Assembly: GCA_028687585.1 (NCBI GenBank) | Contig: JAQTZV010000028.1 | Coordinates: 1 to 64,000 of the forward strand | From: Desulfuromonadaceae bacterium | GTDB taxonomy: Bacteria > Desulfobacterota > Desulfuromonadia > Geobacterales > Pseudopelobacteraceae | Length of the DNA: 64,000 bases | Direction of reading: 5' to 3' | Part shown: piece after piece, positions 1 through 13,470 of the stretch | How positions within the stretch are numbered: position 1 is the first letter of the stretch | How the letters are laid out: every line of letters begins with the position of its first letter | The notes under the pieces: generated by a model | The model's database searches: none | Told to the model about the DNA's origin: nothing | What the model saw: only the letters and a program-made list of their open reading frames with translations | Position numbers and translations under genes: made by a program

Positions 1-38
1 GATAGTCTGGCTGACCAGTCGGGTGAATTATCCGCCAT
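1..38 (-). CDS. Start of an unidentified gene running off the left edge
   Basis: On the minus strand an ATG at 38 is preceded by a strong AGGAGG ribosome-binding site (plus 46-51) and opens a frame without a stop to the window edge. The twelve visible residues read MADNSPDWSARL. That is too short to identify the product. It lies next to a truncated insertion-sequence gene, so a transposase-related gene is possible, but this is inference. Confidence 0.3.
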   Translation of the reverse strand, partial: MADNSPDWSARL

Positions 39-65
39 CTACTGACCTCCTGAGTGAATTGTCAA

Positions 66-389
66 CTACAGGGGCAGCATAGCGGGAAAATCAGTGGGGA
101 GATAGATGGTGCTCGGTTGACGGTTACGAGCATACCGCTTATGGCCAGCAAGAACTGACAGTACAAGAGTTCCCAGAACATCACGGACATTTGGTGCATT
201 CGGGCTTGTATAGCGAAGTGGGCAGTCAGAAACAAAAGATTCGAACAGACCGCTGGCTTTCAAAAACTCGATAAAAAACGGTAACTGACCAAATGGTGTG
301 ACTTCAGCATTGGGGTCCCATTCGACATGAATGCGACCGGCAAAGGTATCAACAGGAATGCGCGAAGCACGATTATTACATTCACCCAT
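66..389 (-). pseudogene. Truncated IS1380-family transposase (N-terminal fragment)
   Basis: The 107-residue frame starts at an ATG at 389 with a good AGGAGG site just upstream. Its first 94 or so residues look like the N-terminus of IS1380-type DDE transposases (RIHVEWDPNAEVTPFGQLPF, then a VRDVLGTLVLSVLAGHKRYA-like stretch). These proteins normally exceed 400 residues. After the GHKRYA motif (about plus 130) the similarity I recognise stops and the frame ends 20 residues later, so the gene is broken and its catalytic core is missing. The break is probably a junction with another element, since a different gene begins just to the left. It is a relic inside the accessory island. Confidence 0.6.
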
Positions 390-857
390 TTGGTGAACCT
401 CCTGATCTATGATTGCAACACAATATCAGGAGGTTGGAACAAAATCAAAGGGTCAACTGCTTTTTATAGGATCAAGGGCTGACATAGAATATAACCAGAA
501 AAAGGCAGGCGAGCTCATGCAGCAACATCAGTAGAGAGTATGTGCGGCAGGTGAAACTCTGGTCGCCCTTCGGGCTCCCTCGTTTCACCTGCCGCACTCA
601 ATAATTAAGAACGGGAATTATAGTTGTCGTTGATCGGGAAAAGTAGTTGACGTTCATCAGTTCCGCCGGTTGTTACTGTCCGGTATACTTTTAATCTGTT
701 GATAATTTAAGCAGTCAATATTCGAAAAGGCTCCAAGTTATTCTAGGCGTTTACTTAATCTGATGAAATTATGAAACCAAAAATAGAAAATTTTTTGTAT
801 CGGTTCTTTCTGCAACAAACTACACACATAGAAAAATAATACGTGAAAAAATAACAC
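390..857. other. Gene-free stretch between IS remnant and toxin-antitoxin operon
   Basis: No convincing coding frame is present. It contains the upstream leader of the truncated transposase, a large perfect hairpin at 542-597, and then AT-rich sequence leading to the xre/res promoter. It probably consists of insertion-sequence remnants, but no terminal inverted repeats of a known family could be identified by eye. Confidence 0.5.
542..597. repeat. Perfect 16-bp inverted repeat with nested hairpin
   Basis: The arm GTGCGGCAGGTGAAAC at 542-557 is exactly complementary to 582-597, with a 24-nt loop. Inside the loop GCCC-TTC-GGGC (565-575) can form a second small stem. There is no T-run directly after either arm, so it is not a standard intrinsic terminator. 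It looks like part of a mobile-element remnant. Confidence 0.7.
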
Positions 858-902
858 TTGACCACTGTCCTATTTGGTACTAAATTTGTACCAAATAGGA
901 CA
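858..902 (+). promoter_or_regulatory. xre-res promoter with palindromic operator
   Basis: A TTGACC -35 element (858-863) and a TAAATT -10-like element (881-886) are separated by 17 bp. A perfect 15-bp inverted repeat, TGTCCTATTTGGTAC at 866-880 and its complement at 888-902 with a 7-bp centre, covers the spacer and -10 region. The placement predicts that the antitoxin downstream represses its own promoter by binding here. The symmetry is seen directly; binding is inferred. Confidence 0.7.
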
Positions 903-920
903 CTTAAAAAAGGGGTCACC

Positions 921-1337
921 ATGAGCAATCTTGCAATCATAAACACTGAAGAAGAACACGCATCTGATCTTGATTTTGATGAAAGTGAACGTTGCGACTT
1001 AGCAAAAGAAGTCACCAGTGTCTTTAAGGCATGGAAGCTTTCTACCGCTGAACAAGCTATGGTGCTTGGCATTACTACTGTTGGGAGGTCTACGATAACC
1101 AGATTTTCTCACGGATACCCTTTACCTCAAAACTATGACATTCTTTGGAGGGTTGGTAACCTGCTGGCGATTTTCTATCTACTCCGGTCTTATAATGTAA
1201 ACAATCCGGATAAAGCTGATAAATGGGTTACTACGCCTAACGTGGCAGTCAATGGGGCTAGACCCGTAGACTTGATGAAAAGCCCAAATGGTGTTGGCTC
1301 GATTCGGGCTTGGCTGGAGGCGTATGGCGCAAGATGA
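921..1337 (+). CDS. Xre/MbcA/ParS-type antitoxin of a RES toxin pair
   Basis: The product is a 138-residue antitoxin-like protein. The ATG at 921 was chosen over an in-frame upstream start at 858 because it follows an AAGGGG ribosome-binding site (about 909-914) and lies downstream of the operator palindrome; the longer start would place the operator inside the gene. The N-terminal half is a helix-turn-helix-like region (AEQAMVLGITTVGRSTITRF). The C-terminal tail (GARPVDLMKSPNGVGSIRAW) has the DUF2384 toxin-binding form of MbcA/ParS antitoxins. It overlaps the downstream RES toxin start by 14 bp, which implies translational coupling. The family neutralises NAD+-degrading RES toxins and represses its own operon. 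Confidence 0.8.
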   Translation: MSNLAIINTEEEHASDLDFDESERCDLAKEVTSVFKAWKLSTAEQAMVLGITTVGRSTITRFSHGYPLPQNYDILWRVGNLLAIFYLLRSYNVNNPDKADKWVTTPNVAVNGARPVDLMKSPNGVGSIRAWLEAYGAR

Positions 1338-1959
1338 CCTGACAAGGTTTGTGTCAAAAAACACGAAATCGCCGAATCCTCTATGGAGAACCCAATCCGC
1401 CTATGAGTCAGATATTCTGCGCTCACAAACAATTGGCGTAAAGCCAACAGCAGCGGGTCTCCGGGCTATGGCGGCCACGGCTCCAGAAAATTATTTCTTT
1501 GGAATTTTCACCAGATTTGGAATGGGCACCTCCAGATGGTCGGACGGAACATTTCCTGTTTGGTACGGAGGGGATTCCGTTGTCACAGCATTACAGGAAT
1601 CGATGTACCATATAGGTAACGCCGCTGGTATACCCACGACTGACGAATATCGCTATTTAATTAACGTCAGTTGTGATTGCGATCTAATAGACACCGTAGG
1701 CTTGGAGAATCGTAACCGCTGGCTGGCATCTAATGACTACTCGGATTGTCAGCGACTTGGCAGGTATATACTACACCGTGATCATAGTGGGATAAGGTAT
1801 CAGTCCGCTAGGTCTAAAGGTGTGTGTGCCGCAATCATGAAGAGAAAAGTGCTTAAAAACCCTCAGATTGTGTCAGTGGTAACGCTCTCCCATAATGGCT
1901 CAATAATAAAGGCTATAAGTCAAGATGGGCAGGTATTAACATCAAGGCCAACTGAGTAA
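1324..1959 (+). CDS. RES-domain toxin
   Basis: A 211-residue protein if translated from the ATG at 1324, which overlaps the antitoxin stop; an in-frame start at 1288 also exists. RES toxins degrade NAD+ (known for the family) and carry conserved Arg, Glu and Ser residues. Here RWSDGTFPVWYGGDSVVTAL followed by QESMYH supplies the Arg and Glu, and GIRYQSARSKG supplies the Ser. The antitoxin-then-toxin order and the overlap are typical of Xre-RES modules. The pair may stabilise the island or act against phage; that role is inferred. Confidence 0.82.
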   Translation: MAQDDLTRFVSKNTKSPNPLWRTQSAYESDILRSQTIGVKPTAAGLRAMAATAPENYFFGIFTRFGMGTSRWSDGTFPVWYGGDSVVTALQESMYHIGNAAGIPTTDEYRYLINVSCDCDLIDTVGLENRNRWLASNDYSDCQRLGRYILHRDHSGIRYQSARSKGVCAAIMKRKVLKNPQIVSVVTLSHNGSIIKAISQDGQVLTSRPTE

Positions 1960-2081: not shown

Positions 2082-2945
2082 CTAAATTGAAGTATCAATT
2101 AACAACGCCTCCTGTTCCAAGCCAACGCCATATCGATCCATCAACTCCACAACATAACGTATATCACTGTCGACATTTTTCCTCAGCCTCGCTAAAACGG
2201 CACTATTGTCAGACAATAGTTGAGCCTTTCCAAAGCGGATAAAAAGCTTTTCCAAATCAGCAGGACAGAAGAACTTCGCCCTATCCGGACAGGCGCTTTT
2301 GATTCTCAGATACTCATCCATGCCAACGGGGTCATAGTCAGGAAAATGAACCATTTCGGCTTCAATCATATCTGGAGATTTTAGCCAATCAAGGACATCA
2401 GCTCCGATTCTTCCTTCGGCATAGATTGCCAAATCAACGAAAGGGGCTATTTTTTCTATGTGCCAAAATGTTTCCAGGTTTTCCACCGTGCCAATTGTCC
2501 CATTACACTTCCAACCATCCATCGAATCCAGGCAAAGCGAAGCCACCCCGGCAATTCTGGTCCATTCTGCAACGGGTAACAGTGCCTCATTCTTTTCGAA
2601 AATACAGCCATTGAACCCGCGGACCAATACTATTGTCGGGTTCCTCCCAATCGCTTTTTTTGAGTCCCTGCGATCTGCTACAGCTTTACTTCTTGACGGA
2701 AGATCGCCTTTGTATCCTTCCAGTCCCGACGGGTAAAGTGACAGAATAAAAGTATTAAGAGCAGTCTGGTTTCTGACGATAAGGCAACGGCCGGCACCGG
2801 ATTTCACTTCATCGATAACATTGGCATCGAAAAGGCTTTGGAGGCGCCTCCGGTCGGTTGTTGATATACTGCTGGAAGGCAACGAGGACTTTTCCGATAG
2901 GATCGCAAGGTGTTTTGCCAATGAATCAACTGGGGCAGACTTCAT
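2082..2945 (-). CDS. jetD: Wadjet subunit JetD (Toprim nuclease subunit)
   Basis: 287 residues. JetD is the topoisomerase-VI/Spo11-like subunit that cleaves circular plasmid DNA after it is extruded by the JetABC SMC complex (known for Wadjet). The C-terminal half has a recognisable Toprim pattern: TVENLETFW with Glu155 as the likely metal-binding glutamate, a glycine-containing stretch near 177-188, and FPDYDPVGMDEY with Asp203 and Asp205. The N-terminal half would be the DNA-binding region. It is shorter than the roughly 380-residue JetD of better known Wadjet types, matching the small size of its partners. The start overlaps the jetC end by 20 bp. It is the last gene of the operon. Confidence 0.88.
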   Translation of the reverse strand: MKSAPVDSLAKHLAILSEKSSLPSSSISTTDRRRLQSLFDANVIDEVKSGAGRCLIVRNQTALNTFILSLYPSGLEGYKGDLPSRSKAVADRRDSKKAIGRNPTIVLVRGFNGCIFEKNEALLPVAEWTRIAGVASLCLDSMDGWKCNGTIGTVENLETFWHIEKIAPFVDLAIYAEGRIGADVLDWLKSPDMIEAEMVHFPDYDPVGMDEYLRIKSACPDRAKFFCPADLEKLFIRFGKAQLLSDNSAVLARLRKNVDSDIRYVVELMDRYGVGLEQEALLIDTSI

Positions 2946-5640
2946 CGGTCTCCTCCCGATGGATTCTTACCAAAGCACTTGAATCGAGAATGAGCCGACC
3001 GCCATTATCCTTGAGGAAATAGATATTATCGGCGGCGTCCATCGCTTCCGGGCTTGCAAGAACCGGGGTAAAACCCAATTGGAGCGACTGTTGAACGATT
3101 GCTCTGGCGTTGTCCTGGTCAAGACTCGACGCTTCGTCGAGGTAGTAGGGGATACTTACATCTTTCCGTTTGTCCAATAACCCCCGCAATAACATCAGGT
3201 TAATAAGCACCTTGATTGTTATCGTCGTACCGTTCGACTCGATGCTTTCCAGTTTTGGATACTCACGTTCTTTCCCGTCTGCCGTGGTCACGACAAATTT
3301 AAGCTCAAAGAGCTGGCGTAATTCGATACGACCCGATTTTCTCAGGAATTCACCAATAAGCCCGTATGCCTTACTGGTGTCCTGAGTGGATGCAAACAGA
3401 GGCGAATCCTCCTGACGGATGACATTTTTGAGCCATGGGACTAATTGGTCGTTCTCGTCAATCTCCAGACGCAGTCTCTGGAGATTTGAGACAGAAACCT
3501 TGGCCAGTTGGCGGTTAAGATCCTCAACCTTGCCTCTTAACCTATCCAGGTCATCAAGCATATTTTTGATAGAACTCTGCAATACTGCTGCGAGCCCGGA
3601 CCATAGCTTTTCCGCAGCTTCCTCTTTCTGGGCAAGGGCATCCAGTTCCTCCCCAAGAATCCGTATTGTCTCAGCCTCAGTACCGCCTTTACTTCGCCCA
3701 TATGTCCGATTATCGATTACCAGCAATCTGCTTCCCAATTTTCCATCAAGAATCTTCTGCCGATCAAATAAATCGAGATATAGGACATGCATGTCTTCGA
3801 ACAGATCGGGGAATTGAAGAGTCCTGCACAACGGCCATGACTGATCTGGGCTCTGTAAAGAACGGATTTGATCCAGATAGGTTTTTTCCTTCGCGTTGGC
3901 TTGCCCTATACGCACCTGTATCCCGTTACGCTCCTTGATTATTTCACTTTGCATTTGGCGAAGTTGCTCCATACGCTCTAGATGATGGGAACTCTTCTTT
4001 TCCAACTGATCATGTTCTTTCAGCCATTCTCTGGATTTGACCAGATTCTTCTGGTACTCCAGGAAACGGTGGCGGAGCAGTTGGTAACTTTCATGTTCCT
4101 GACTCAACGCCCTTTTTTGCTGAGTTAAAGTTTCAGACTCTTCCGCTGCAAGCAATATCATTTTATCTCGCGACACTGATTCTTCGAGACCCTTTATATT
4201 TTCAGCGATCAATGCCGGATCGGTATACTCATCGAGACACGGCGGGTCGAGCGACGCAAGAGACAATGTTATTGCGTCATCACTGTAAACTCCATCAGAC
4301 ATTTTGTCCGAGATGGCCAGGATTCGAGATTTCAGCTTAAATTCATCTTCAATATGCAAACCTTCATTGTCTAATTGAAGGCCGAGAACCTTGTGGTTCA
4401 GTATCCGGAACGCCTGTTTCAGAGCATCCTCACCGCACAACCCCTTGAGTCTTGTCGCTACAGTCAGCGAGATCCCTTCCAATAGTACCCTCTGTGTTGC
4501 CAGCTCTTTTTCCTGCGTCTTGATACGTGCGGCTACCCTGACAGCCGGTTCTTGCCCTGCAGACTTCAAACGATAATCGATCTCTTCGATTTGCAATCTG
4601 AGTTTAGTGATCTTGGCATCCTCGATGTCTGCAAGATAATCTTGAAATTCTGTCTTTTCCTGTTCAATTTTTGTAAGATCCTGCTTGAGTGCCCCCAATC
4701 GCTGGTCGAGAGACCTCATTAACTGTTCGGTCTCACGGTGCTCTTTCTTCGCTTCACCTTCCTTTTCCATGAGTTGTTCCAGTTGCAGGGTGAGCGTTGC
4801 CCGCGACTGAGCAAGTCCGGCCCGTATCCCATCCCAGGCTCCACTGATAGCGGCAAAGAGGAGCGGCAGATTACCGCGGACATCATTCCGTTCGGCAGCC
4901 AATAAGAGAGCCTGTCTGATGTCGTCAGCCACTGACTGCAGACCGCGTACATCGTCGGCCAGCCGCATCACCTTTTCAAACTGGCTCGAATAGTCAGTTT
5001 CAGGGTCTATGCTCTTCTGCTTGAATTCGGATTCATAGATATCGTAGAGAAAACATTTCAAGTCTTCCTGACTCAGATGAGCCAACCGGAGAAGGTTGCT
5101 GAATACTCGTCGAAACCGGCGATAGGCATCACTATCGCGGGTTGGAACCAAGCCGAGATGAACGCCATTGTTTTCACCGCTGCCGGTCAATGCCGCTTTT
5201 AACTGGTTCGGTTCCAGCTTTCGATAGTCCCTGCCTGCCAGAAGTCCCCGGATATCGTCTTCCTGTCGCATTTTGTCCGATTCATCAAGAAAGTCAGCGA
5301 TGTCGAACTTCCCCTGGTAACTGAAGCGCCTGAATTCGTAGCGTTTAAGCGGACCAAGTCCCTGAACTCCAACCACTCGGTAGCCGGTGGGTGTCAAGCA
5401 TTCGAATAGTATGTAGCTGTTCGGATCGGGAAAATAGTAGCGCCTGGTGGCGTCCATATCCCTGGAGAAGTGCATGTAGCGCTGGTCGTCAATATACAGA
5501 AACTGCAGGGCCGCTATCAGCGAGGTCTTTCCTACGTTGTTAGGCCCAACCAGGTGCAGCGGAAGGACGAGTTCCACTTCGCCGTAATCGTATTTGCCTG
5601 ACTTCAAAAAGATTAATCGAGTAGGCCCCACGACACTCAT
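2926..5640 (-). CDS. jetC: Wadjet subunit JetC (SMC/MukB-like ATPase)
   Basis: 904 residues. This is the SMC motor that extrudes DNA loops. The N-terminal ATPase half carries a Walker A motif GPNNVGKTS at residues 32-40. Two long, charged coiled-coil stretches surround a central hinge-like region (about 270-700). The C-terminal head has a Walker B motif YYLDEASSLD with Asp835 and Glu836. These are the hallmarks of SMC/Rad50/MukB proteins. The start overlaps the jetB stop (ATGA), showing tight coupling. It is smaller than the roughly 1,100-residue JetC of type I; the subtype cannot be assigned with confidence by eye. Confidence 0.9.
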   Translation of the reverse strand: MSVVGPTRLIFLKSGKYDYGEVELVLPLHLVGPNNVGKTSLIAALQFLYIDDQRYMHFSRDMDATRRYYFPDPNSYILFECLTPTGYRVVGVQGLGPLKRYEFRRFSYQGKFDIADFLDESDKMRQEDDIRGLLAGRDYRKLEPNQLKAALTGSGENNGVHLGLVPTRDSDAYRRFRRVFSNLLRLAHLSQEDLKCFLYDIYESEFKQKSIDPETDYSSQFEKVMRLADDVRGLQSVADDIRQALLLAAERNDVRGNLPLLFAAISGAWDGIRAGLAQSRATLTLQLEQLMEKEGEAKKEHRETEQLMRSLDQRLGALKQDLTKIEQEKTEFQDYLADIEDAKITKLRLQIEEIDYRLKSAGQEPAVRVAARIKTQEKELATQRVLLEGISLTVATRLKGLCGEDALKQAFRILNHKVLGLQLDNEGLHIEDEFKLKSRILAISDKMSDGVYSDDAITLSLASLDPPCLDEYTDPALIAENIKGLEESVSRDKMILLAAEESETLTQQKRALSQEHESYQLLRHRFLEYQKNLVKSREWLKEHDQLEKKSSHHLERMEQLRQMQSEIIKERNGIQVRIGQANAKEKTYLDQIRSLQSPDQSWPLCRTLQFPDLFEDMHVLYLDLFDRQKILDGKLGSRLLVIDNRTYGRSKGGTEAETIRILGEELDALAQKEEAAEKLWSGLAAVLQSSIKNMLDDLDRLRGKVEDLNRQLAKVSVSNLQRLRLEIDENDQLVPWLKNVIRQEDSPLFASTQDTSKAYGLIGEFLRKSGRIELRQLFELKFVVTTADGKEREYPKLESIESNGTTITIKVLINLMLLRGLLDKRKDVSIPYYLDEASSLDQDNARAIVQQSLQLGFTPVLASPEAMDAADNIYFLKDNGGRLILDSSALVRIHREETDEVCPS

Positions 5641-6182
5641 AAAGAAACCCCACTTTCCGCCTGTTTCAGGTCCGCTTGAAGGATTGAGTGGCAGATGTCG
5701 AAGAATCGGTACACCGGCGAACGAAACCGGAACGAACCACCTTTGCGCACGGCAAAACCGAATCGCTCCAGATGGTTTACTACCCCTTCAAGGCCGACAT
5801 GGTCTGCAACGCCACTCTCCTTCATGTAGATTCGATATCTCTCGGTAGAAAAGTGCGGCATGTCGGCAATGGTAAATTCCTTGGTGAGGATGCTTTCGGC
5901 AACTGGCTCTCCCTGCCCTTCAAGAAACTCCATCAATATGAAGATGAACAACGCCATCCGGGAGCTGGCGTCACTCAGAGTTTTTTCGCCTCGGAAATAA
6001 TAAAAGTCACGGGGATGCGCTTCAAGCTTGAATCCCAGACTATCAAAAAGCCTCTGGTATAGGTCGAAGTTATCATACATGGCATGATATTGATTGCCAT
6101 CTTCCGCACAGATATGCCTGCCGCGGCAGAGACGCTGGAATATCTCGTCAAGGAAAGGAAGCTCGCATGGGTTTTCAATCAT
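5637..6182 (-). CDS. jetB: Wadjet subunit JetB (MukE/kite-like)
   Basis: 181 residues. In Wadjet, JetB is the small winged-helix (kite) subunit bridging the kleisin JetA and the SMC JetC. The identification rests mainly on position, size and order: it lies between jetA and jetC with four-base ATGA overlaps at both ends. The C-terminal part (HVGLEGVVNHLERFGFAV then a basic strand) looks like a winged-helix module. Sequence alone would be weak, but the operon leaves little doubt. Confidence 0.85.
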   Translation of the reverse strand: MIENPCELPFLDEIFQRLCRGRHICAEDGNQYHAMYDNFDLYQRLFDSLGFKLEAHPRDFYYFRGEKTLSDASSRMALFIFILMEFLEGQGEPVAESILTKEFTIADMPHFSTERYRIYMKESGVADHVGLEGVVNHLERFGFAVRKGGSFRFRSPVYRFFDICHSILQADLKQAESGVSL

Positions 6183-7396
6183 CGAATTGCCTCAACAGCT
6201 AACGGACAGGCAAGAACCGTTATGCCGGGTAATTGGTATTTCTTTTCATCTCTGGAAAATGAAGCCGAGAATGAATCACTGCCGAATATGCGGCCATAAG
6301 CCCGAAGCAGTTCTGGGAACGGATATTCTTCATAGCTATCGAGAATCCATTGCAGAACGTCATTAACGGGGAGCGATTGTAGCAGCTTGTCTGTGAGTTC
6401 GTCAGGTGGGATAAACTGATGAGAAGGTTGTTGCGCTCCAAAGCTGATCACTGGAGGCTCTTGTGGTTGGTAGCCACGGACATTGTGCAGGTAAGCTTCA
6501 ATGTCCGTATTATCGAACAGCCCTTCGCGGAGTCTTCCGGCGTGAATCGCCAGTTCCGACTGCAGATTGAGACTTTTGATCCCTTCCTTGCCGATTCGTT
6601 CCAGTGCACGTGCTACGCCTCTTGCAAGTGAGCTGTCCTGTTTCAGGGAGGCATAGAGAGGCTCCACCTCATGCATGGACTCGTGAAAATCAGCCGTCAT
6701 ATCACGACGCAGCCTGACCAGGCGTACTGAGCATCGGGAAAACTCACGGTGCAATGCACCATCCAGCAGAAATTGCTCCGAACCATGCCTCAACAGCCTC
6801 TCAAGGTTATCAAGCGAGGAATCCATCGTTTTGCGAACATCGATGAGGTCTTTGAGCGGTTCCAGGTAATGCTTCCACAGATGGAGTATTTTTTCGAATC
6901 GCTCTGAAACCGTCCGCTTCTCTCTGTTCGACTTGACGGTCATCACCTCGCAGATGATCGCCTCGCGGTTGGCACGTGAATCCTGGCGAATCCGCTCCAT
7001 CGTTTCCGTTGTCTCGTCAAGCGCCCGTTCGATCATGCTGTGTTTGTCATCGCGAATGGCGAGGTCAAGAGCGGCCTGTGACCGTTCCAGTTCATCAAGG
7101 TATGCCTGTATTACGGCGGTAGAGGTAAGACGCTGTTCCTGGAGCAGGAAGCGAAACAGGATGGCAACCGTCCTGGTCATCTCGTAGCTGGCGGTTGCAT
7201 CGGGGAGTGGTTCGATTATCTTGAGGTTGATGAGCTTTTCAATAAGGGCGGCGGGAGATTCCAAACCTGTGCGGTGCCGCCTGATCAACTCGGTCAGTTC
7301 GGCGTCATTCATCCCGCCGATTCTGCGGAAAATATCGTGCAACAGAGAGTAATTCTGCGCCGCGAAGTTGAAGAAGGATTGTGGATTTATAGCCAT
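6179..7396 (-). CDS. jetA: Wadjet subunit JetA (MukF-like kleisin)
   Basis: 405 residues. JetA is the kleisin that closes the SMC ring and is the first gene of Wadjet operons. The N-terminus is helical and winged-helix-like (ELIRRHRTGLESPAALIEKL). Long amphipathic helices follow at 100-290, then a C-terminal domain (DELTDKLLQSLPVNDVLQWI) likely to contact JetC. Its stop overlaps the jetB start by ATGA. A TATAAT element at plus 7416-7421 lies 20 bp upstream of the ATG and could be the -10 of the operon promoter, although no good -35 is visible. Confidence 0.85.
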   Translation of the reverse strand: MAINPQSFFNFAAQNYSLLHDIFRRIGGMNDAELTELIRRHRTGLESPAALIEKLINLKIIEPLPDATASYEMTRTVAILFRFLLQEQRLTSTAVIQAYLDELERSQAALDLAIRDDKHSMIERALDETTETMERIRQDSRANREAIICEVMTVKSNREKRTVSERFEKILHLWKHYLEPLKDLIDVRKTMDSSLDNLERLLRHGSEQFLLDGALHREFSRCSVRLVRLRRDMTADFHESMHEVEPLYASLKQDSSLARGVARALERIGKEGIKSLNLQSELAIHAGRLREGLFDNTDIEAYLHNVRGYQPQEPPVISFGAQQPSHQFIPPDELTDKLLQSLPVNDVLQWILDSYEEYPFPELLRAYGRIFGSDSFSASFSRDEKKYQLPGITVLACPLAVEAIR

Positions 7397-7503: not shown

Positions 7504-8049
7504 TTAAAATACGACCGCATCACTCCCAGCTAGCCGCTTCTGAATATACTTCTCAGTTGCATCGCCAAGTTTTTCTTCGAGAAGATCAGCCAGCTTATCT
7601 TTTATTTCAGCAAGGTCATTTATGCCTAATACCATTTTTCCAAAAGCATTAGCGGCCATCTTTGCGGCAGCCGGAAGCAATACGGTTCCGGTTTTCACAC
7701 AAGCATCACGAAAACTTACCCAACTCTCGTCGCCTTCGGACTTTTTAACAGCAGACAATATCTCCGCAGAAATCAATAAAAACGGATCATCAGTATAATC
7801 TTGCTCAAAGGCATCGAGAAAAATGGTTTTGTAGCCATTCACTTCCAGCTGTGCAGCCCAGTTGCTCCCGAAATAGGACTTCCCTTCTCCCCATGGTGCG
7901 TCTATAGCCATGACGCATCCGCTATTCAAACGGTCAATATACTGGGTAAGTCGATCTGCAAGTAGCTTACGTTCGAACTTATCATTACTGAACGGCTCAC
8001 CGTCTACGTACGCAGGTGGTCGATGATAGATTTGGTTGTCTTGGGTCAT
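7504..8049 (-). pseudogene. Truncated KAP-family P-loop NTPase
   Basis: 181 residues, where KAP NTPases usually have more than 450. The N-terminal region carries the family start (a FSNDKFERKLLADRLTQYI-like segment) and a Walker A loop in APWGEGKSYF. The rest of the ATPase (Walker B, membrane segments) is missing, and the frame ends abruptly after a short unrelated-looking tail. The ATG overlaps the stop of the upstream AlbA-type gene (ATGA), so the two were once co-translated. Truncation 23 bp from the direct repeat at 7463-7481 suggests that arrival of the Wadjet cassette removed the 3' part. KAP NTPases often occur in phage-defence loci. Confidence 0.7.
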
Positions 8050-9406
8050 TTGACGTCCTGAGTGGTAGTGATGATTTCCCAGTGCCCACCTTTATCAGGC
8101 CCGATACGACGAAGACTGTTAGCACTCTGTAATTGCCGAATGTTTCTTTCAATAGACCGTTCTGTTAAACCAACCAACTTAGCCAACTCTGGAATGGTAA
8201 TCCTGTTGTCACCAGCAATAGCTTCCAGAATTTTCACCGACGTTTTCACCGACGTTTTCACCGACGTTTTGCTAACATCTTCGGTGATTGTTTTCTCTAC
8301 AGATTTTCGTTTGAACGTGACGATGAACTGTACGGTTCCCACTTCCTCGAATTCAGTAGCAGGCTCCCGCTCCAGAATCATCTTGATGCCACGTCCCCAT
8401 TTCTCTGTACGGTGACTGCGCTGAAACAATTCAGCCAGCAGCTCGTTACGACGGGCAGAGACCATCTTCTTTCTGATGCTGTCTATAGTAAGCCCGCCAT
8501 ACAGAAGGCCGGGGCTTCTGATCTCTATCCGATCTTTAAAATAGCGATATTGACGGAATCATACTCCCGATAGTCACGGTGACAGAATGCATTGATAATC
8601 GCTTCACGAAATGCTTCACGGTCTATCTCAGGCACGTCTACCCGCAGCAACCCTTCCAGTCGCATACCAATATTGATATGCTCCAGAACGTATTCCTCTG
8701 CCTTGTTGATCAAAGCAAAGACATCCCCATAGAAATCCTTCATATCAAGGGTAACAGTAGTGTCCAACGTGCCGAATACCGCACAGCGTAACCGGGCGTT
8801 GGGGAAAAACTTCTCGGGTTTGCGGGCAAAACAGAGCACGGCAGCATTCAGCATTTTGCCGTCTCTGATCAGATTCAATTTTTCGAGGGAGTTGGGGACT
8901 GTGTCGAACTTGAGATTGCTGAGCTTGAGGAATGACTTCAACTTGCCTGGCCCAATATCGTCAAATAATGCTTTGTCGCAGACCTCCGTATCCCAACGGA
9001 GCCGGTCACGGTTTTTTGCCAAAATCAGGTTTTCCAGTTCACGGGCACTTAGCTGCCTGTCTTCGTCCCCAACCCTGATATATGCCCGACCATAGGCATA
9101 GTACGGGTGATCCTTGCCAACGACCTGCACCTTGACACACTGCTTGGTATCAACCGACACCTGTTCGATAATTGGAAATATTTTGGGCTCAATATTATCG
9201 GCAATAGTCTTGGAAATATCCCGGATAGTTTTATCGGAGATCTGCTGACCCGCGACCGTACCATCGTTCTTAACGCCGAACCAGACTTCACCCCGCTGGT
9301 GTTTGTTCAGCATCGCCACAATAGAGATCACCGCCTCCTTCAACTCGGAGGTGGATTTTTTCAGTTCAGTGGTTTCGGTTTCTTGAAATATGGTCATTAT
9401 TTTCAC
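8046..9406 (-). pseudogene. Frameshifted AlbA_2/Schlafen-type ATP-binding (RecG-like) protein
   Basis: Two frames make one gene. Residues encoded at 9406-8525 (GTG at 9406, or ATG at 9397) carry the AlbA_2 domain (FQETETTELKKSTSELKEAV) and part of a GHKL-like ATP-binding domain ending FREAIINAFCHRDYREYDSV. A stop then appears at 8525-8527. Reading on in the -1 frame from about 8540 gives FKDRIEIRSPGLLYGGLTID followed by the C-terminal region found at 8465-8046 (RTEKWGRGI and a winged helix). This is the expected family continuation, so one base appears lost at the A-run 8538-8541. The full product would have about 450 residues. The C-terminal linker contains three TSVK repeats. The gene is disrupted unless rescued by recoding or a sequencing error is responsible. 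Confidence 0.75.
8231..8270. repeat. Three 12-bp tandem repeats inside the AlbA-type gene
   Basis: TTTTCACCGACG occurs three times in tandem, followed by a partial TTTT. In the minus-strand frame it encodes TSVK units in the linker before the winged helix. The 12-bp unit keeps the frame, so copy-number changes would alter only linker length. Confidence 0.8.
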
Positions 9407-9522: not shown

Positions 9523-10689
9523 ATGAACAGACTAGAAGTTAAGTTTACTCGGGAAAGACTCTATGAGGAGGTGTGGAGCAAGACAATGATGTCCCTTGCC
9601 AAGGAGTACGGACTTTCAGATACCGGCTTACGAAAAATATGTAAATATCTCCAAATTCCGCTTCCACCACAGGGATATTTTCTGCGAAAAAGAAGGGGCA
9701 CTCCTCCTCCATTACCACCCGCGACCAAAAGCACTCCCACAAAGTATGTTTGCTACTACTGCCACCCGCCAGCACATCTTCAGGATACTGTTCCTGAAGA
9801 ACCAGTCGTTCCCGAGATTGCCTTTGAAGATGACCCTGCAAACCGGGTCACCGTCCCTCCAACACTCGAATCGCCCCACCCTCTAACAAAGAAGACCGCG
9901 CAGGTGTTTAGTAAAGCCAAACTAGATGATGATGGCAGGCTGAATGGCCGGCATCGAGACGGTTTGAATATCACTGTTTACCCTGAGAGCGTCAACCGTG
10001 CCCTACTGCTCATGGACACAATCATCAAAGCTATGAATAATCGTGGTTTTACAGTCGCAATTGATTCCGGAAACAGGGTCACCACAGTGACTATTCTCGA
10101 CGAAGTAATCGAAATATGCCTGGAGGAACGAGGCCAAAGGGTTGACTACGAGCCAACTCCGAAAGAGCTGAGGAGAGCTGAACGTCTCAAACACCGCACC
10201 TATCCACTTTACAAATATGTTTCTTCAGGTCGGTTGGTTATCAAAGCAACGACTCGTATCGATCCATGGGAGTTGGTCTCATCCGATAAGAAAAAAACAC
10301 GGATTGAGATGAATCTCAATGAGACTATTGCCAGACTAATTAAATACGCTCTGAGTGTTAAGGAGCGACGCTTGCGTCGCGAACAGGAGGAGCGCGAGCG
10401 ACGGGAACGTGAGGAACATCGACAGGAGATGCGGCGACTCATAGAGCTGGAGAGGGTGAAACTCAAGGAACTGGGCGAAGAGGTAGATGCTTGGCACAAA
10501 AGCCAGCGCATCAGAACATATGCGGACGCAGCGAGGCAGATTGCAATAGCACAGCATGGACGAATAAATCCTGGCAGTGAAATGGATGAATGGTTGATCT
10601 GGGCTGAGAAACAGGCTGATCGACTCGACCCATTGGTTAAAAGCCCCTATTCGGTTCTCGATGATGAGGCCAAGTACCGGGGCTGGTAA
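9523..10689 (+). CDS. Uncharacterised protein with N-terminal HTH-like region and charged coiled coil
   Basis: 388 residues, with an ATG preceded by GGAGG (9508-9512). I do not recognise the family. The N-terminus (RLYEEVWSKTMMSLAKEYGL then SDTGLRKICKYLQIP) reads like a helix-turn-helix. A proline-rich linker with a Cys-rich patch YVCYYCHPP follows (about 60-90). A mixed alpha/beta middle region spans roughly 140-270. The C-terminus contains a highly charged Arg/Glu coiled coil (about 285-330). It forms a probable two-gene operon with the gene at 10720. It lies near the putative Tn7-like right end, where transposition genes would be expected, but nothing links it clearly to TnsA-E. Confidence 0.6.
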   Translation: MNRLEVKFTRERLYEEVWSKTMMSLAKEYGLSDTGLRKICKYLQIPLPPQGYFLRKRRGTPPPLPPATKSTPTKYVCYYCHPPAHLQDTVPEEPVVPEIAFEDDPANRVTVPPTLESPHPLTKKTAQVFSKAKLDDDGRLNGRHRDGLNITVYPESVNRALLLMDTIIKAMNNRGFTVAIDSGNRVTTVTILDEVIEICLEERGQRVDYEPTPKELRRAERLKHRTYPLYKYVSSGRLVIKATTRIDPWELVSSDKKKTRIEMNLNETIARLIKYALSVKERRLRREQEERERREREEHRQEMRRLIELERVKLKELGEEVDAWHKSQRIRTYADAARQIAIAQHGRINPGSEMDEWLIWAEKQADRLDPLVKSPYSVLDDEAKYRGW

Positions 10690-10719: not shown

Positions 10720-11223
10720 ATGAAAACTCAGGCGCCTCAGGCAAAGAAACAAACAGTAAAAAAAACCCGACCGAAAAAACCAAAAGAGGATTACTGCACT
10801 TTTGTAGTAGAAGTTATTGATTGGGAATTAACATATCTGTTTTCTATAAACCATGATCAAAAATATCGCCCAACCCCATATGAAGAATATCTGCATCTGG
10901 AAATTAAAGGCATACTACGCGAACCTAAGAAATTTGATGGGAAGGAAATCGACGTCACATTCATGGGAGACCGAAATATGATACCTGACATAAACAATCC
11001 AGCTTCTACTATCAAACCAATAAGCCTTGGTTTTCTTAAAATCCGAGGCGACCATCGACAGTTTATCGGTTCAATCCCGCAAGATTCACTTCCGCTCATT
11101 GCACCTATGCTGGAATCGAAACGCATCCGGTTTTTTCATCTGCACGGTTCAAGCCTTCATCACTGCACTGCGTCAATTAAATCCATTCATTTTTTCAATG
11201 ATTTTGACCCGGAAGAATGGTAG
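10720..11223 (+). CDS. Uncharacterised 167-residue protein
   Basis: The start follows an AAAGGAG ribosome-binding site, 30 bp after the preceding gene. The first 25 residues are very Lys-rich (KKQTVKKTRPKKPK), as in nucleic-acid-binding tails. The remainder is a compact beta-rich domain (EYLHLEIKGILREPKKFDGK, then a HLHGSSLHHC patch). I do not recognise the family. It ends 80 bp from the first transposon-end repeat, so it is the glmS-proximal gene of the island. Confidence 0.6.
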   Translation: MKTQAPQAKKQTVKKTRPKKPKEDYCTFVVEVIDWELTYLFSINHDQKYRPTPYEEYLHLEIKGILREPKKFDGKEIDVTFMGDRNMIPDINNPASTIKPISLGFLKIRGDHRQFIGSIPQDSLPLIAPMLESKRIRFFHLHGSSLHHCTASIKSIHFFNDFDPEEW

Positions 11224-11302
11224 TCGGCAATACGTTGTGTGCCGATGTCTGACCACCACTATGACCCACACAAAAAACTGATTCATTCTGCTTTGGCACT
11301 TG

Positions 11303-11380
11303 GTAAACAACTTTATTTTTGAGTAAACAACTTTATTTTTCAGTAAACGACTATATTTTCCAGTAAACAACTTTATTTTG
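11303..11380. repeat. Four 20-bp direct repeats, putative TnsB-binding sites
   Basis: Copies begin at 11303, 11323, 11343 and 11363 with core GTAAACAACTTTATTTTT; the third copy has three changes. Read from the glmS side, the outermost copy CAAAATAAAGTTGTTTACT resembles the Tn7 end-repeat pattern (as I remember it, CAAAATAGTTGGGAACT). Exact 20-bp periodicity without unique spacers rules out a CRISPR array. Confidence 0.75.
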
Positions 11381-11412
11381 GTTGAACAGGTTTCATAGAG
11401 CAGTATTTTTAC

Positions 11413-13242
11413 TCACTCCACCGTCACGCTTTTAGCGAGATTCCTCGGCTGGTCAACATCAGTTCCCTTTAATACGGCAATATGATAGGCAAGAAGCTGC
11501 AACGGCACAGAGAGCAGCAACGGATCAAGATCTTCATCAAGATGCGGAATTTCGATGGTTGTCTCCACCCGGCCATGCATCTCTTCGTCACCGGCAGAAC
11601 AGATGGCAATCACCCGGCCGCTCCGGGCGATAACCTCCTCCATATTCGAAAGTGTTTTTTCGTAGGTACTCCCTTTGGGCACCAGAACAACGACCGGCAC
11701 ATCTTCATCAATCAAGGCAATTGGGCCATGCTTCATTTCTCCTGCGGGGTAACCTTCTGCATGGATGTAGGAAATTTCCTTCAGCTTGAGCGCACCTTCG
11801 AGGGCTATCGGGAAATTTTTGCCACGGCCGAGATAAAGAAAATCACGGGCATTCATATATTTTTTTGCCACTTTTTCAGTATATTCGTTCAGCTCCAGCG
11901 CCTCTTCCAGCAGTCCCGGCACTTTTTTTAGCGCCGCGATCATCCGCTGACCATGAGCAATATCAATCGAACAGTTAGCGCGCCCCAATCGAATGGTAAA
12001 TAGATACAGGGCGGTCAACTGGGTAACAAACGCCTTGGTTGAAGCAACACCGATTTCCGGACCGGCATGGGTATAAATTACCCCGGATGACTCCCGGGCA
12101 ATTGATGAATCAACTACGTTGCAGATGGCAATATTCATGGCACCGCGAGATTTTGCTTCGCGCAGGGCAGCGAGAGTATCGGCAGTTTCACCCGATTGCG
12201 ATATAACAATCGCCAGCGTGCTGTCATCAATTACCGGGTTTCGGTAGCGGAACTCTGACGCTATATCAACCTCAACCGGAATGCGGCAGAGCCCCTCGAT
12301 ATAGAATTTGCCAACCAGAGCAGCATGCCAGGAGGTGCCACAGGCTATGATGACAATTCGCTTTACAGCGGCCAGTTGCCGGTCACTGAACTGAAGATCT
12401 TCAAGGTAGACGTCCCCTTCTCCCTCCAGCAGTCGGCCGGCAATCGTGTCCCGTACCGCACGCGGCTGTTCATGAATTTCCTTCAGCATGAAATGCCGGT
12501 ACCCCCCTTTTTCAGCCATCATGGGTGACCAATCGATACGACGAGCCTTTTTATCAAGTGCGCCGCCTGCAATCGTGGAAAAACGAGCTTCCCCTCCCCG
12601 GAAAACCACCATCTCACCATCCTCCATGAATACCATTTCGCGGGTATAGGCCAAAATGGGAGGAATATCGGATGCAACGAAAAACTCATCTTGGCCAAGA
12701 CCAACTACCATCGGAGAACCCAGTTTGGCAGCAATTAAACATTCAGGGTCTTTTTCGTTGAGAATACAAACTGCATAGGCACCGCGTAATTGGGCCAACG
12801 CCGTCCTGACCGCCTTTTCAAAAAGGGGCTCCGTCTTGAATGCCTCTTCGATAAGGTGCGAAATAACTTCAGTGTCTGTTTCGCTCTTAAAAGTATGCCC
12901 GGCTTTCTTCATAAGCTCTTTTAGCTGCAGATAATTTTCTATGATGCCGTTATGTACAACAATAATCGACCCGGCTTTGTGCGGGTGGGCATTAATTTCC
13001 GAAGGCCTGCCATGCGTTGCCCAGCGGGTATGGCCGATACCGACTGTTCCGGTAAGCGGCTCATCCCTGAGAATTTTTTCAAGATTAACCAGCTTCCCCT
13101 GACTTCTGCGGATTGCTGACTCGTTATTTGACAACGTGGCTATTCCGGCTGAGTCATAGCCTCGATACTCAAGTTTTTTAAGACCTTCAAGAATAATCGC
13201 GGTTGCCTGCTGCCCACCAATGTATCCAACGATGCCGCACAT
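11413..13242 (-). CDS. glmS: Glutamine--fructose-6-phosphate aminotransferase
   Basis: 609 residues from the ATG at 13242. That start places Cys2 at the N-terminus ([10 protein letters not shown]), as needed for the glutaminase nucleophile, and has GAGGAG upstream; the longer frame to 13317 is not used. It converts fructose-6-phosphate and glutamine to glucosamine-6-phosphate, the first step toward UDP-GlcNAc. Domains are glutamine amidotransferase class II (1-220) and two SIS isomerase domains ([18 protein letters not shown]). The C-terminus LAKSVTVE is intact. In Tn7 biology the end of this gene is the TnsD target, so it forms the attTn7 site for the neighbouring island. glmU, the later step, lies at 35.7 kb. 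Confidence 0.97.
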
Positions 13243-13470
13243 ATACATCTCCTCAAGAACGGAAATTAAAAAACTTGACTCATGGACGTAGTACCATAAT
13301 CCACGGATTATTAGCACATTTTTTTAATCCTGATATCAATACTGTCATGTTCCTCTACGTATTCCCAAACCCGAATATGTTTGAATTCCTGAAATGATAT
13401 GCTATTTTGCCGCAACCGGAACGCAAAGGCGGCAGTATTCCCATTCAGATATTCAGGAAGGTTTGTACCA

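Follow-up and report, generated by a model that had tools for sequence, protein, structure and literature searches.

The four direct repeats found 3' of glmS are very probably an array of TnsB-binding sites at the right end of a Tn7-like element that had inserted into attTn7. The window, that is the whole stretch of DNA that was analysed, comprises bases 1-64000 of contig C56 (66,555 bases) and belongs to genome G000, a 5.47-Mb assembly of 60 contigs. Arrays at both ends of the element, their geometry, the terminal sequence, the flank, an uninterrupted junction in a relative and a remnant of tnsD can be read directly from the assemblies; binding of TnsB to the array sites and the insertion events themselves are what these sequences suggest. 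As neither transposase genes nor a full-length tnsD were found, with a gap remaining in the assembly, we call the island a disabled or transposase-less Tn7-like derivative and not a full element. The right end defines one border of this island, which carries defence-type genes, and accounts for its position beside glmS.

The right end is made up of four 18-nt repeats on the minus strand, 3' of glmS, with a spacing of exactly 20 bp. The earlier note, which had pointed to these repeats and to a TGT terminus at 11388 (minus strand), 24 bp past the glmS stop, was right on their coordinates and spacing as well as on the terminus. The stop codon occupies 11415-11413, from where 24 bp lead to the TGT at 11388-11386, and this insertion distance is within the range of about 20-25 bp of the Tn7/TnsD pathway. 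The following features make up the right end and its target:

11301..11318, minus strand: putative TnsB site R4
11321..11338, minus strand: putative TnsB site R3
11341..11358, minus strand: putative TnsB site R2
11361..11378, minus strand: putative TnsB site R1, which reads AAATAAAGTTGTTTACTG
11386..11388, minus strand: right-end TGT terminus, at +25 from the glmS stop, with the first site 10 nt further in
11389..11393: GGTTT, target duplication at the right end (its counterpart at the left end, on C48, is the GGTT before TGT)
11389..11412: attTn7 spacer of 24 bp between the glmS stop and the element
11413..13317, minus strand: glmS, the target gene (longest frame; the true start is probably further in)

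A search with AAAATAAAGTTGTTTACT at <=3 mismatches returned four matches in the window, all of them in the glmS-side array, as compared to a mean of 0.02 in shuffled windows, where four matches were reached in 0 of 100 shuffles. Across the whole assembly (5.47 Mb), the same threshold gave 14 matches versus 12 for a reversed-pattern control. Seven of these have <=2 mismatches and fall into two clusters only, the glmS-side array and C48:673-803; the other seven are scattered, each with 3 mismatches. A chance origin of the array was rejected on the basis of the shuffles, the clustering of the matches with <=2 mismatches and control windows drawn from the same glmS loci as the tally described below, which contained sites in 0 of 420 cases.

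A matching inverted end with TGT had been expected further left. Such an end is present, but on contig C48, and not further left in the window, where the contig starts at base 1. Contig C48 (4,697 bases, L017) has a left terminus, TGTTCACCCAAAATAAAGTTGTTTACTGG, at C48:664, which agrees with the right terminus at 28 of 29 nt and is accompanied by three inward-facing sites with offsets 0/68/113. The array sites are inverted between the ends, with four R sites in the window and three L sites on C48, and the termini have the form TGT...ACA (TGTTCAACC at the right and TGTTCACCC at the left end). The predicted GGTTT target duplication was recovered in part: GGTT is present at both ends, and the outer flanks, GGTT at the left and GGTTT at the right, are identical over 4 bp and over 5 bp only with a one-base slip. 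Positions 1-116 of C48 contain the 5' end of a minus-strand 16S rRNA gene (Rfam RF00177, 92 bits). As the two ends sit on different contigs, their linkage is indirect, and we infer that C48 and C56 hold one element. The terminal bases of C48 recur at five other G000 contig ends and the first bases of C56 at three; since both contigs end in multi-copy IS sequence, the sequence between them is unassembled.

The glmS site of a relative, a comparison proposed in the earlier note, agrees with this arrangement. Of the genomes searched, G008 has the GlmS closest to that of G000 (96% over the C-terminal 199 residues); its glmS continues into a similar rRNA leader without repeats in between, and the joined G000 flanks align on both sides. 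The distance from the end of glmS to the common leader is about 350 bp in G000 and about 35 in G008; as about 300 bp of the G000 flank are missing there, G008 represents an uninterrupted junction and not an exact empty copy. The G008 leader was recognised by 78% identity over 125 nt to C48, and the contig edge precedes any 16S match. A single-copy gene would have been a more specific left flank than an rRNA leader, which is usually multi-copy, and this weakens the G008 comparison.

Directly inside the left end on C48 lies the 3' part of tnsD, a 297-aa frame that matches PF15978 with 200.9 bits over profile positions 142-354 of 355. The gene is interrupted at C48:1968 by an IS21-family element. 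The insertion was placed at this base because the first 21 residues of the tnsD fragment are the end of the IS21-family element; a query with the fragment against the genome contigs found two loci only, both of which match these 21 residues. From base 1968 on, C48 is 100% identical to L021 over 92 nt and 94% identical to L020 over 908 nt; istB comes next in the IS21-family element, and its largest istA-like frame extends from 2481 to 3557. The 5' part of tnsD was not found in the G000 genome, where the single tnsD match covers profile positions 142-354. The Tn7-like family proposed in the earlier note is hence supported by the left end on C48, its flank, the tnsD fragment and the G008 junction. 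Of the tns genes expected there, the assembly yielded the tnsD fragment inside the left end, but no tnsA, no tnsB and no TniQ domain. TnsA and TnsB protein queries from G046 had no match in the G000 assembly and were found in 10 and 15 of 98 genomes, respectively. Pfam searches of the G000 assembly with the TnsA and TniQ families gave no match, with the controls silent too, which is why the TnsA protein query with its positive relatives was used. The TniB family, with a cut-off of 22.4 bits, matched two G000 frames, one of 868 aa (26.4 bits) and one of 1328 aa (24.9 bits), though this model also matches 13 of 14 control genomes, and neither place had a tblastn match to the G046 TnsC at E<=0.001.

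We propose that TnsC and the TnsAB transposase were recruited by a TnsD protein that had bound glmS at its 3' end. The right end with its TGT would then have been joined 24 bp past the stop, with about 5 bp (GGTT(T)) being duplicated, and the left end with its three sites would have come to lie between the island and the rRNA gene, making the DNA between the ends cargo. With tnsD cut by the IS21-family element and tnsA and tnsB not found in the assembly, the G000 copy is presumably immobile by itself now. Due to the tnsD remnant, a loss of the transposition genes after insertion explains the G000 island well. The part of the island within the window contains the following features:

1..475: fragment of a multi-copy IS, located at the contig edge (1-127 recurs at three and 349-475 at six other G000 contig ends)
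612..659: end of an IS21-family element inside the island (612-666 and the L020 IS end share 80% identity over 55 nt)
858..1337, plus strand: cargo, Xre/MbcA/ParS-type antitoxin (PF09722, 27.8 bits)
1288..1959, plus strand: cargo, RES-domain toxin (PF08808, 74.1 bits)
2082..2945, minus strand: cargo, JetD-like protein of a Mks/Wadjet-like set (PADLOC JetD, 24.3 bits; PF09983, 20.1 bits, below the cut-off)
2926..5640, minus strand: cargo, SMC-like subunit (NCBIfam MksF, 223.9 bits; equivalog cut-off of 1900 not reached)
5637..6182, minus strand: cargo, MksE subunit (PF21980, 103.3 bits, above the cut-off)
6179..7396, minus strand: cargo, MksB-like subunit (NCBIfam, 63.7 bits, equivalog cut-off of 750 not reached; no Pfam match)
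7504..8049, minus strand: cargo, KAP P-loop NTPase, N-terminal part only (PF07693, 32.9 bits; PADLOC PDC-S20, 110.8 bits, positions 12-165 of 464)
8046..9406, minus strand: cargo, Schlafen/AlbA_2 ATP-binding protein (ORFs 8525-9406 and 8046-8465; PF04326, PF13749)
9523..10689, plus strand: cargo, 388-aa protein (Pfam, PADLOC and NCBIfam all without a match at E<=0.001)
10720..11223, plus strand: cargo, 167-aa protein (Pfam, PADLOC and NCBIfam all without a match at E<=0.001)

The multi-copy IS piece at the contig edge accounts for the break of the assembly at base 1 of C56. The L020 IS end that resembles window positions 612-666 is the counterpart of the IS end that cuts tnsD on C48. The IS21-family ends at window position 659 and at C48:1968 are inverted and their flanks do not match by eye, so that we do not claim that they belong to one element; two separate copies are possible, as is one element with an adjacent deletion. 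Within the Mks/Wadjet-like set (2082-7396), PADLOC JetA, JetB and JetC gave no match at E<=0.001, and as JetD was the sole PADLOC Wadjet match at this threshold, the set looks divergent. The two Schlafen/AlbA_2 ORFs are probably one broken gene. Two broken genes together with the IS insertions point to decay of the island. The 388-aa and 167-aa proteins adjoin the right end and are possibly cargo of an unknown kind.

Similar ends are found in several relatives. The left-end layout of G000 recurs within 2 nt in five of them, with offsets of 0/68/113 in G020 and G001, 0/67/113 in G063, 0/69/113 in G045 and 0/68/111 in G046. A search with the exact pattern gave 18 places in 10 of 98 genomes, compared to eight for the reversed pattern, and 17 of the 18 are in end-like contexts, the exception being in G058. 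In G046, which belongs to the same genus, contig C417 contains tnsA, tnsB, tnsC and a partial tnsD, and a four-site right end lies just outside tnsA. Like the G000 island, this element has four right sites at 20 bp, three left sites and TGT ends; unlike it, the transposition genes are present, with tnsD cut by the contig edge, and the sites read GGTAACTG where those of G000 read TTTACTG. glmS is not on this 10.8-kb contig. At 5855-6086 (L070), only 5 bp (ATCGT) separate a right end from a left end, which suggests tandem copies or an adjacent second element.

G045 has a tnsABC element at glmS (L138, contig C4, 5565-15214) with TAAAT at both ends and no tnsD match. One of its termini is TGA instead of TGT, and its left end is proximal to glmS, opposite to the orientation of Tn7, whose right end faces glmS. 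The element abuts a second right-type end, the first 28 nt of which equal the G000 left end; a left end belonging to it was not seen in the rest of the contig. In both G046 and G045, the array borders tnsA, and in G012 a 42-residue TnsA match lies about 4.8 kb inside the right end. In G076, a left end with offsets 0/68 and only a weak third site at 133 is located about 1.5 kb from glmS (L142, contig C59, 9547-11059), with an ATPase-like frame in between by eye; no right end was recognisable at this locus. A supposed left end in G014 was counted as doubtful, having sites at 0/46 inside a reading frame and lacking TGT.

How often such sites occur at glmS was tallied in 32 genomes. The GlmS C-terminus was matched in 35 of 39 genomes searched, G000 included; the four genomes without a match and G033, where the match was partial, were left out of this examination. 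All rates refer to the 30 genomes (G000 and 29 others) that came from the GlmS search, leaving out G045 and G074, which had been added because of their tns genes. Sites within the first 150 nt 3' of glmS were present in 10 of the 30 genomes (12 of 32 with G045 and G074), as arrays in G000, G014, G010, G012, G020 and G029 and as single sites in G004, G036, G034 and G026. A TGT at +23 to +27 was found in 11 of the 12 site-bearing genomes and was exactly 10 nt ahead of the first site in eight of them, counts that have no control for TGT. By the tally criterion, 20 of the 29 relatives are without sites, including G008; G003, with one 3-mismatch site at +33, was scored as having none. Among the genomes scanned outside the tally (G025, G027, G028 and G031), a single site, with 2 mismatches, was seen about 48 nt beyond glmS in G027; the other three have none near the gene.

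According to the earlier note, the same repeats downstream of glmS in relatives without an island would speak against a transposon end, and this was seen in part: G029, G036, G034 and G026 have one to three sites with no second end recognised (about 20 kb each), and in G004 the 3.4 kb up to the contig edge contain another isolated site but no recognised second end. As 20 of the 29 relatives, G008 among them, have no sites, we read sites without a second end as scars of older insertions. In G029, G036 and G026 (L083, L084 and L086), three, one and one R-type sites, respectively, are followed by similar terminator-like hairpins by eye; it is possible that these are old Tn7-like insertion scars that are now perhaps part of the glmS 3' region.

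One alternative to a derivative that lost its own genes is that the island is a transposase-less satellite, which moves or moved by means of the TnsABCD proteins of a related element in the same cell, with the tnsD remnant being incidental. We consider this possible, though rather doubtful. tnsA and tnsB were not found in G000, as such a satellite would predict, and G020 provides a clean example of a similar kind. There, a 10,425-bp element (L082, contig C18, 137-10561) is bordered by glmS and an aconitase gene, with TCAGG flanking it at each end, and its joined flanks align through the junction with the empty sites of G009 (77.6% over 840) and G006 (84.1% over 850). Inside this element, nothing matched a tns gene at E below 0.1, and the G020 genome had no match at E<=0.001 for the three proteins queried, TnsD, TnsB and TnsA; as this assembly is 94% complete with 9% contamination, tns genes may be missing from it. 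The G020 island resembles that of G000 in having its right end at glmS, a left end of 0/68/113 and no tnsA or tnsB found, and differs from it in having no tnsD remnant, two recognised right sites in place of four, other cargo and an exact duplication. It fits either loss after insertion or movement in trans. In the unbiased set, a TnsB match was found in only one of the 10 genomes with sites at glmS (G026, on contigs other than its glmS contig), but TnsB was equally rare in site-free genomes (one of 20, G032), so that its rarity alone says little. Furthermore, the tnsD fragment in G000 says that tns genes of its own were present in the ancestor, the same facts would be explained by an internal deletion that followed insertion, the site triplets differ between islands and no matching helper was identified.

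Another alternative is that the element is an autonomous Tn7-like transposon with tnsABC located in the unassembled gap between C48 and C56. The multi-copy IS sequence at the ends of both contigs leaves room for this, and the 3' part of tnsD is at the place expected for the end of a tnsABCD operon. We nevertheless regard it as improbable, given that the searches for TnsA and TnsB, positive in other genomes, had no match anywhere in the assembly, and that tnsD is interrupted, with its 5' part not found. The missing middle of the island was also sought in 17 other G000 contigs (four whole, the first 20 kb of 13), which yielded nothing beyond contig-end IS pieces and a 30% IstB match on C40.

It is highly unlikely that the array is a host terminator or regulatory repeat of glmS and not a transposon end. 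Such a function might be suggested by the sites 3' of glmS in the 10 of 30 genomes, some of them single and beside a terminator-like hairpin (by eye). However, by the tally criterion, two thirds of these genomes (20/30), including the one with the most similar GlmS, do without sites, inverted copies of the sites are present at a distant end, such sites border the tnsABCD genes in G046, and elements in G020 and G045 are flanked by exact 5-bp target duplications; the host-regulatory reading was rejected on the inverted distant copies, the tns-gene borders and these duplications. The repeats are even less likely to be the terminal repeats of an IS21-family element: IS21-family genes are present on C48 and IS21-family elements also have repeated ends, but the IS21-family end starts elsewhere, at C48:1968 inside tnsD, with a different repeat sequence, and tnsA adjoins the array in G046 and G045, for which reasons this reading was rejected.

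Returning to the Tn7-like derivative, transposase-less Tn7-ended islands may be common in these relatives. We tentatively put forward, as a speculation more apt to fail than to hold, that attTn7 in this lineage is mainly filled by natural islands of this type, which would be trans-moving satellites of rarer tnsABCD elements and would require only the 0/68/113 left and 20-bp right geometry, the island in the window having lost or shed its own machinery. A literature search (titles and abstract openings) returned no paper on natural transposase-less Tn7-like islands, from which we do not claim their absence from print. With islands like that of G020, whose ends are intact and for which no transposase was found, mobilisation of natural Tn7-like islands in trans can be tested directly. 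A related but different idea is that some Tn7-like elements recruit target selectors in trans, as suggested in the part of PMC10293859 considered here.

The yardstick for our comparison with E. coli Tn7 was the Tn7 copy in plasmid R721 (NC_002525). Both elements have four right and three left sites and a TGT terminus, and AATAAAG begins at nt 12 of the right end in both. The likeness of the repeats to the Tn7 end, noticed earlier from the sequence, holds, with the first R site being identical at 13 of 17 nt, a value that was reached by four of 200,000 random 17-mer draws from the window. The right-end spacing is 20/21/20 in Tn7 of R721 and 20 bp throughout in G000, and the left-end offsets differ (0/64/120 versus 0/68/113). 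G000 is also unlike Tn7 in that tnsA and tnsB were not found, tnsD is interrupted by an IS and the cargo is different. Two E. coli plasmid stretches, L179 and L181, gave no clear arrays as Tn7 yardsticks. A cyanobacterial tnsABCD element on a Tolypothrix plasmid (L180, 7715-7855) has weak L sites (4-5 mismatches) at 0/68/123, near 0/68/113, and the plasmid stretch compared shows no clear right array. For Tn7 itself, the excerpted account in PMC2918618 names the final 36 bp of glmS as the stretch bound by TnsD and places the insertion about 20-25 bp further on with a 5-bp duplication, and the excerpts of PMC8649781 give three left and four right TnsB sites. The same excerpts of this survey of Tn7-like transposons describe arrays of TnsB sites at both ends and IS and defence genes as cargo, and list 34 cases of Wadjet (JetD), which is thus already known as Tn7-like cargo. 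As the survey, according to these excerpts, started from tnsB genes, it would miss islands without tnsB, and an island seemingly lacking tnsB such as that of G000 would be absent from it. With its end arrays and its IS and defence-type cargo, the G000 island resembles the Tn7-like transposons described in these parts of PMC8649781, and it illustrates that Tn7-like islands can be detected by their end arrays where no tnsB is seen.
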